A stretch of 64,000 nt of DNA from Rhodospirillales bacterium (GTDB taxonomy: Bacteria; Pseudomonadota; Alphaproteobacteria; Rhodospirillales; Shumkoniaceae). The notes beneath the pieces are model-generated. The model saw only the letters and a list, made by a program, of their open reading frames with translations, was not told where the DNA came from and searched no databases. The DNA is taken from the NCBI GenBank assembly GCA_018432935.1, contig JAHDSF010000007.1, forward strand, positions 1 to 64,000. The letters are read 5' to 3'. This document shows positions 17,582 through 19,484 of the stretch, in pieces. Position numbers and translations under genes: made by a program. Positions within the stretch are counted from its first letter, which is position 1; each line of letters begins with the position of its first letter.

Positions 17582-18079
17582 ATGAAAACGAAAAACCCCA
17601 GCACCGTTCAGGGCCGCAAGGCCCGGGATGGCAGAGTCAACAGGGTCGAAAAGCTGCCACCGGGCACGCCGAACCCGGTGGACATTCACGTCGGGGGACG
17701 CGTGCGCTTGCGGCGCACGCTGCTCGGAATGAGTCAGGAACGGCTGGGCGAATCGGTGGGCTTGACGTTCCAGCAGATCCAGAAGTACGAGCGTGGTGCC
17801 AACCGCATCGGATCGAGCCGGCTGTTCGAGTTCAGCCGGATCCTGGATGTCCCGGTGTCGTTCTTCTTCGACGACATGCCGGAGGACATCAAGACCCGGG
17901 AAGGGCAGTTCGCCCGCGCGCTCCAAGAGGACGACCAGAGCCCCTACGAGCCCGATCCCTTGACCAAGCGTGAGACCCTTGAACTGGTGCGCGCGTACTA
18001 CCGCGTCACCGATCCCAAGGTCCGCAAGCGCCTTTTCGAACTGACCAAATCGCTGGCCAAGATGGAAGGCGACGAATAG
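17582..18079 (+). CDS. XRE-family helix-turn-helix regulator
   Basis: A 165-residue protein with a basic N-terminal extension (1-33), a classical HTH_3 domain (about 36-92; LGMSQERLGESVGLTFQQIQ, then KYERGANRIGSSRL) and a C-terminal tail ending in ELTKSLAKME. A regulator of this type just upstream of metK is common in alphaproteobacteria, and it is probably a global or envelope-related regulator. Its target cannot be read from sequence. A strong hairpin follows the stop codon. Confidence 0.88.
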   Translation: MKTKNPSTVQGRKARDGRVNRVEKLPPGTPNPVDIHVGGRVRLRRTLLGMSQERLGESVGLTFQQIQKYERGANRIGSSRLFEFSRILDVPVSFFFDDMPEDIKTREGQFARALQEDDQSPYEPDPLTKRETLELVRAYYRVTDPKVRKRLFELTKSLAKMEGDE

Positions 18080-18084
18080 CCCGC

Positions 18085-18125
18085 AGGGTGCCGCAAGCGG
18101 CGCAGGCGCGCCCTAGCGGCACCCT
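18085..18125 (+). terminator. strong hairpin after the XRE gene, terminator-like without a T-run
   Basis: AGGGTGCCGC (18085-18094) and GCGGCACCCT (18116-18125) are perfect complements around a 21-base loop. No T-run follows, so it may stabilise the 3' end or act with Rho rather than terminate on its own. Confidence 0.4.
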
Positions 18126-18235
18126 CGATTCCACTTGACGCTCTCCCTGATCGCTGCCACAAAACCTGCGGCGGGTTTCCTCGACGGGACCTGTCCGTGG
18201 TCGGATTTGGACCGCTTGCCACCACGTAAAACAGG

Positions 18236-18304
18236 CGCTAAGTGGGCTTCTCCGGACACCCGCCGCTAAGCCCCGGTCCACAGGGATCCATTGACTGGAG
18301 GGCC
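18236..18304 (+). promoter_or_regulatory. candidate structured leader (riboswitch-like) of metK
   Basis: A hairpin GTGGG (18242-18246) / CCCGC (18259-18263) has the loop bases TTCTCC (18248-18253), which can pair in antiparallel with GGAGGG (18297-18302), the metK Shine-Dalgarno (four Watson-Crick and two G-U pairs). CGCTAAG occurs twice, at 18236 and 18264. A loop-to-Shine-Dalgarno pseudoknot upstream of metK is the layout of small SAM-binding riboswitches such as SAM/SAH, whose loop also carries GGCUUC. The exact class is not established. Conserved secondary structure in relatives would be needed to confirm it. Confidence 0.45.
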
Positions 18305-18308
18305 AGCC

Positions 18309-19484
18309 GTGCCTTTAGCAGACTACCTGTTCACGAGCGAATCGGTTTCCGAAGGCCACCCCGATAAGGTCTGCGACCTGATTTCCGATTCGGTCGTCGA
18401 CACCTTTCTCGCGCGGGATTCGAACGCCCGCGTCGCCTGCGAAACCTTGTGCACGACCAACAAGATCGTGCTGGCCGGCGAGGTGCGCGGCCCGGCCGAC
18501 CTTTCCCGCGACAAGCTCGCCCAGGTGGCGCGCGAGGCGGTACGGAAGATCGGCTACGAGCAGGACGGGTTCCACTGGAGCAAGGCCGACGTCGAAGTCT
18601 ACATCCACCAGCAGTCGGCGGACATCGCCCGCGGTGTCGACGCCGGGGCCGACAAGGATGAGGGGGCCGGCGACCAGGGCATCATGTTCGGCTATGCCTG
18701 CTCCGAAACCCCGGCGCTGATGCCCGCCCCGATCCATTATGCGCACGAAATCCTGCGCACCCTGGCGGAAGCCCGCCATGCCGGCAAGATTCCGCAGCTG
18801 TTGCCTGATTCGAAGAGCCAGGTGACGCTGCGTTACGCCAACGGCAAGCCGGTCGGCGCCACCTCGGTGGTGGTGTCGCACCAGCACGTCCCCGAGGTCG
18901 ACCAGCACGGCGTCCGCGAGATCGTCCGCCCCTACGTCGAAAAGGTGCTGCCGGCCGGCTGGATGTGCCCCGAGGAGGAATTCTACGTCAATCCCACCGG
19001 CCGCTTCGCGATCGGCGGGCCCGACGGGGATTCCGGGCTGACCGGGCGCAAGATCATCGTCGACACCTACGGCGGAGCGGCGCCGCACGGCGGCGGCGCC
19101 TTCTCGGGCAAGGACCCGACCAAAGTCGACCGCTCGGCCGCGTATGCCGCCCGCTACCTGGCCAAGAACGTGGTTGCCGCCGGCCTCGCCGCGCGGTGCA
19201 CGATCCAGCTTGCCTACGCGATCGGCGTCTCCAAGCCCCTGTCGGTGTACGTCAACACCGATGGCACCGGCCAGGTCGACGAGGCGCGGCTGGTCAGGAT
19301 CCTGCAGGAGATGGTCAACCTCAGCCCGCGCGGCATCCGCGAGCACCTCAAGCTGAGCCGGCCGATCTACGCCCGCACCGCGGCCTACGGCCACTTCGGC
19401 CGCGAGCCCGAGGGCGATGGCGGCTTCTCGTGGGAGAAGCTCGACCTCGTCCCGCAGCTCAAGTCGGCCTTCGGAGCCCGTTGA
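18309..19484 (+). CDS. metK: S-adenosylmethionine synthetase
   Basis: A 391-residue enzyme making SAM from methionine and ATP. The GTG at 18309 is chosen because GGAGGG lies six bases upstream and the protein then begins [20 protein letters not shown]. Family motifs present are [26 protein letters not shown] and [16 protein letters not shown]. The TTG at 18291 would remove the Shine-Dalgarno. The stop overlaps the trmB start (TTGA). Translation is probably controlled by the upstream leader. Confidence 0.96.

Follow-up and report, generated by a model that had tools for sequence, protein, structure and literature searches.

The window, a stretch of 64,000 nucleotides, contains metK (methionine adenosyltransferase; 18309-19484, + strand, GTG start; TIGR01034 493.6 bits, cut-off 309.4), and the leader of this gene raises the question of whether it senses S-adenosylmethionine (SAM) and, if so, through which class of riboswitch and at which step of expression. 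The original prediction placed a possible SAM-sensing element at 18236-18304 and described it as a loop that pairs with the Shine-Dalgarno (SD) sequence, resembling the small SAM-V and SAM/SAH riboswitches. There is strong support for a riboswitch of a SAM-sensing class in this leader; the class, however, is SAM-II and not SAM/SAH or SAM-V, and the aptamer (18196-18245) overlaps the predicted interval while lying mostly outside it. The leader probably carries a SAM-II variant specific to metK, whose most likely role is to shut down metK translation at high levels of SAM. The SAM-II architecture, the conserved pocket with its A47-to-G change and the association with metK are shown by sequence comparison, which also lends evolutionary support to the predicted pairings (P1, P2, P3, GGUCC:L1 and GGUCC:SD) and suggests that the GGUCC element would be released on ligand binding and mask the ribosome binding site.

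SAM-II match and distribution

The covariance search that had been proposed for this leader (cmscan of 17900-18600) gave two matches below the Rfam gathering scores, i.e. SAM-II (SAM_alpha, RF00521) at 18187-18261 with 25.5 bits (cut-off 36) and SAM-II long loops (RF01726) at 18191-18251 with 25.6 bits (cut-off 44), and no match to SAM/SAH (RF01727) or SAM-V at E <= 10. Similar sequences are present 5' of metK at three other loci (L008, L010 and L065), and a covariance model built from these and the window, with P1 as its sole structure (model R1), scores the window element, which is one of its training sequences, at 91.5 bits. At E <= 0.1, R1 finds the element in 198 of the order's 317 genomes, and some 150 of the listed places have an E value below 3e-7. 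By tblastn, metK lies downstream of 112 of the 113 matches examined (two loci being counted twice under different ids), and the remaining one (L180) precedes a MetK-like start near a contig end. Among about 380 genomes sampled from the rest of the class, R1 matches in 12, mostly with metK downstream, and families f64, f96 and f178 are among them; one of the 12 is a metZ copy (L238) and one has no gene assignment (L237). Beyond the class, a sample of 299 genomes of the phylum gave no match. The metK SAM-II element is common to more than 100 related species. Just 1 of 20 representative elements passes the Rfam SAM-II cut-off.

Upstream of the aptamer, TTGAC at 18135-18139 (+ strand) is a possible -35 box of the metK promoter, judged by its position relative to P1 in homologous leaders: the motif occurs 15-130 nt 5' of P1 in 71 of 80 leaders, with ~0.11 expected per leader. 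A match to the P10 sRNA at 18120-18187 (16.1 of 37 bits) was taken as chance. Between lnt and metK lies a helix-turn-helix gene (17582-18079), which several XRE-type repressor families match weakly, all below cut-off, and at another locus (L015 3151-3310) the Brucella sRNA families BASRCI27 and BASRCI408 match directly after metK, again below cut-off.

Structure and covariation of the aptamer

All elements of the aptamer lie on the + strand. P1 is formed by CGUGG (18196-18200) and CCACG (18222-18226), and its loop L1, GGAUUUGGA (18203-18211), contains UUU at 18206-18208, which corresponds to U10-U12 of SAM-II and is invariant in 85 of 85 sequences. The P2 pseudoknot joins CCGCUUGCC (18212-18220, SAM-II positions 16-24) to GCUAAGUGG (18237-18245, positions 42-50), in which 18242 is a G at position 47, normally an A. 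Of the two copies of CGCTAAG that had been pointed out at 18236 and 18264, the first (18236-18242) is the 3' core strand of the aptamer; the second is kept in only 2 of 81 leaders and was rejected as a decoy for P2.

The pairings were examined in 85 representative sequences, the alignment of which was fitted to a P1-only model and hence not to P2. In P1, 100% of cells are paired and 3 of the 5 pairs show compensatory double changes; in P2, 97.2% of cells are paired, pair 17-49 occurring as C-G, U.G, G-C and U-A and pair 18-48 as G.U, A-U and G-C. Taken together, P1 and P2 are paired in 98.3% of cells, compared to 26-56% when the structure is slid by 1-3 columns. Double changes occur in 4 pairs, in 13 cells versus 1.6 in shuffles, although shuffles overstate significance because the sequences are related by descent, which swaps within families and repeated changes across families lessen but do not remove.

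Measured against SAM-II itself, the element has both the P1 stem and the P2 pseudoknot of its loop with the 3' strand, and the pocket nucleotides listed for the class (PMC3764141), i.e. U10-12, U20, U21, G22, C23, C43, U44, A45 and A46, are invariant in 85 of 85 sequences. G42 and A47, completely conserved in SAM-II according to the same source, are not both retained: position 42 is G in 75 of the 85 sequences (T in 5, A in 5; G in the window), whereas position 47 is G in all of them. Since the architecture is that of SAM-II while the strict definition (A47 and the Rfam cut-off) does not apply, the metK element is called a variant here, in line with the early guess of a divergent variant.

Position 47 and the ligand

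The substitution follows the gene. Position 47 is G in 85 of 85 metK elements versus A in 53 of 53 metZ SAM-II copies, a set that comprises 31 sequences made up of the window genome's own copy and the top-scoring RF00521 matches, 2 that the G47 model itself picked up and 20 from further down the strong-match list; the window's order accounts for 52 of the 53. At position 19, 84 of 85 metK elements have C, whereas 8 of 33 metZ copies have A (Fisher p 2e-5), a pattern that fits a Watson-Crick pair C19-G47. The window genome has one clear SAM-II riboswitch (70.7 bits, A47; L001 1501-1579, - strand, contig C9:23904-23982), which is followed by a hairpin with a T run and by a gene that reads from its translation as metZ (O-succinylhomoserine sulfhydrylase). 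More diverged SAM-II-like elements in metK leaders of two other alphaproteobacterial assemblies (L017 1767-1814 and L019 1839-1927) also have CTAAG (G47), together with a GCUU/AAGC extension of P2.

In SAM-II, A47 contacts the amino-acid end of SAM (PMC3764141), and in SAM-V the change of the equivalent A50 to inosine severely reduces SAM binding (PMC6061858), so that G47 speaks against unchanged SAM recognition: either SAM would be read differently in the metK elements, or the ligand would have changed. The latter would mean that a SAM-II-derived aptamer no longer, or not only, senses SAM, because G47, paired with the near-invariant C19, would have ceased to read the amino-acid end; the switch would then accept SAH, decarboxylated SAM, 5'-methylthioadenosine or some other SAM-pathway compound. 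The strict G47/A47 division between metK and metZ, the accompanying difference at position 19 and the effect of inosine in SAM-V all point that way, and the spermidine-sensing variants of SAM-I, a class that includes metK leaders, show that a SAM aptamer can gain another ligand through changes in its pocket (PMC10853860). On the other hand, the exclusive association with metK fits feedback by SAM, the sulfonium-sensing U.A-U triples and the adenine-pairing U44 are invariant, and the Watson-Crick edge of a G could conceivably itself bind the carboxylate. A changed ligand is considered unlikely, though it is the most probable of the alternatives. Since the metK element is homologous to SAM-II and is associated exclusively with metK, SAM is its most likely ligand, the pocket change notwithstanding.

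Expression platform

Downstream of the aptamer (+ strand throughout), P3 is formed by GGGCUU (18244-18249), which overlaps P2 by two bases, and AAGCCC (18268-18273). The 3' strand of P3 runs into a toggle strand, CCCCGGUCCA (18271-18280), of which GGUCCA (18275-18280) can pair with 18208-18213 in L1, whereas the anti-SD part, CCCCGGUC (18271-18278), can pair with the SD region, GACUGGAGGG (18293-18302, with GGAGGG at 18297-18302). The latter duplex joins the toggle strand to 18293-18301, with a single A bulged out, and has 8 pairs and an energy of -12.2 kcal/mol.

When the pairing of each leader's own strands is compared to that of swapped ones, all three helices stand out. P3 (GGGC/GCCC), with at least 4 pairs in 74 of 81 leaders, gives z -3.5 (-2.0 with swaps within families only), GGUCC:L1 gives z -8.0 (-3.3) and GGUCC:SD gives z -5.4 (-3.6). 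By alignment columns, L1:GGUCC is paired in 86% and P3 in 82% of cells, versus 35-45% for the whole structure slid. The strands also change together: L1 GGAUC occurs with GGAUCC (L129, L132 and L144) or GAUCC (L166), L1 GAAC with GUUUUA (L130), CCUCCGGU with ACCGGAG (f29), and CCUGGU with ACCAGG or, elsewhere in the same family (f24), CCCCG with CGGGG; in many families CCCUCGGUC stands opposite GAUCGAAGGG or GAUCGGAGGG.

A recognisable toggle strand is missing in some families, 13 of 81 leaders falling below a motif score of 8/9. Five leaders (L160, L161, L185, L186 and L187) keep the aptamer core with G47 and have no clear GGUCC toggle strand, their expression platform being apparently either different or lost. 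In another (L190; G001:C39, from 18827), P1 and L1 are kept and lead straight to GTCCAATCGGAC; this metK leader, lacking the P2 3' strand and P3, is by its layout a natural deletion. Many leaders have a further hairpin, P4 (GUCC/GGAC), just 3' of the toggle strand (18275-18289 in the window; also L086, L094 and L129). Its pairing is not significant in the own-versus-swapped comparison (z -0.6 to -1.4), and its 3' strand, UUGGAC, repeats the sequence of L1, with which it may compete for GGUCC.

In the window, P2 (18212-18220/18237-18245) overlaps both the L1 strand at 18208-18213 and P3 at 18244-18249, while the anti-SD strand (18271-18278) overlaps P3 at 18268-18273 and the L1 partner at 18275-18280. 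Because of these shared strands, P2 with anti-SD:SD and L1:GGUCC with P3 are mutually exclusive sets, which leads to the proposed OFF and ON states. With SAM bound, P2 would form, occupying L1 and removing GG (18244-18245) from P3, and the freed toggle strand (18271-18278) would cover the SD region (18293-18301). Without SAM, P3 would form and GGUCCA (18275-18280) would pair with L1 (18208-18213) as an alternative pseudoknot, leaving the SD open. The literature on SAM-II structure implies that ligand binding favours the P2 state, whereas the rest of the mechanism is what we infer. With ViennaRNA, a method that cannot model pseudoknots, SD accessibility shows a small drop, by 0.053 versus 0.022 in shuffles and by more than 0.1 in 28% versus 13%, which gives the switch weak support across species; for the window itself this method, with the same restriction, gives no drop.

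Instead of masking the SD, the same SAM-II aptamer could act through transcription termination or mRNA stability. Most SAM-II riboswitches are thought to act on transcription (PMC6061858), mRNAs are stabilised by SAM-II binding in S. meliloti (PMC9373788), and hairpins with T runs stand downstream of the metZ SAM-II copies in the present genomes. However, a hairpin with a T run is not apparent in the metK leaders read, and the toggle:SD pairing is supported by the own-versus-swapped comparisons, which makes such a mode of action improbable; the expression platform of the metK element is apparently translational.

Masking of the SD was also part of the original prediction, and as such is supported, for 18271-18278 with 18293-18301 rather than through a TTCTCC loop. 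The letters and coordinates on which that loop was built are correct (GTGGG 18242-18246, CCCGC 18259-18263, TTCTCC 18248-18253, GGAGGG 18297-18302 and GGCTTC at 18245), and the loop and SD are complementary in the window, although two of the six pairs are U.G wobbles (18248.18302 and 18249.18301). Among relatives this helix is unconserved: at least 6 consecutive pairs, wobbles allowed, are formed with the own SD in 35% of 81 leaders and with a species-swapped SD in 35%, 45% of other species' loops reach at least 6 pairs with this window's SD, and the mean duplex energies of own and swapped pairs are no different (z +0.3; 0.1 within families). The hairpin fares no better, as the conserved partner of GGGC is GCCC (18270-18273) and not CCCGC, and the GUGGG strand is the conserved 3' strand of P2. 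With own pairing no better than swapped and the second CGCTAAG unconserved, the loop:SD structure is a chance feature of the window, and a hairpin (18242-18263) that offers TTCTCC to the SD in a SAM/SAH- or SAM-V-like pseudoknot is very improbable.

Relation to known riboswitch classes

With SAM-II the metK element shares the P1 hairpin, L1 with its UUU, the P2 pseudoknot with its UUGC/GCUAA core, the A-rich linker, nearly all pocket nucleotides and the position at an alphaproteobacterial methionine gene. It differs in mostly scoring below the Rfam cut-off, in G instead of A at position 47 within a continuous helix (C19-G47, R18-U48, Y17-G49, C16-G50), in its target, and in having P3 and a toggle strand able to mask the SD, where metZ SAM-II has terminator-like hairpins downstream. 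SAM-II long loops has the same aptamer architecture and is known from Bacteroidetes and marine sequences (PMC2864571). SAM-V has a pocket nearly identical to that of SAM-II and is a translational OFF switch, as proposed for the metK element, but its SD lies inside an extended P2 helix, whereas the SD at 18297-18302 is 51 nt past the end of P2 (18245). SAM/SAH also occurs in alphaproteobacterial metK leaders and masks the SD by a pseudoknot, but has another fold, with direct pairing between the P1 loop and the SD (PMC7367207), and is reported from Rhodobacterales only (PMC2864571, PMC4239095). Membership in SAM/SAH was rejected on the missing covariance match and the chance-level loop:SD pairing, and membership in SAM-V on the missing covariance match and the distance of the SD from P2. 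The spermidine riboswitch is a precedent for fixed changes at ligand-contacting bases, also before metK, but has the SAM-I fold, polyamine genes as targets and an unrelated architecture (PMC10853860).

A survey of methionine regulation in Proteobacteria reported SAM_alpha in Rhizobiales and Rhodobacterales only, with metK absent from the listed targets (PMC4239095), and metK is not mentioned in PMC1273637 or PMC2258182. No description of a metK SAM-II element was found in the open-licence literature, although an earlier description elsewhere is possible. As judged from sequence, the element is a real and widespread SAM-II variant dedicated to metK and marked by a diagnostic pocket substitution. 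A bolder reading, in which it would constitute a gene-specific SAM-II subclass of more than 100 alphaproteobacterial species with a two-pseudoknot GGUCC switch, the fixed A47-to-G change either altering the ligand or giving SAM recognition a new form, is considered unlikely.

Implications for methionine metabolism

The metK element would account for metK control in much of the window's order, and the SAM synthetase and metZ of one genome would be under the control of two sister SAM-II switches. These sister switches differ at one ligand-contacting base strictly according to the gene controlled, and the contrast between A47 and G47 bears on how the SAM-II pocket sets the choice of ligand or its affinity.
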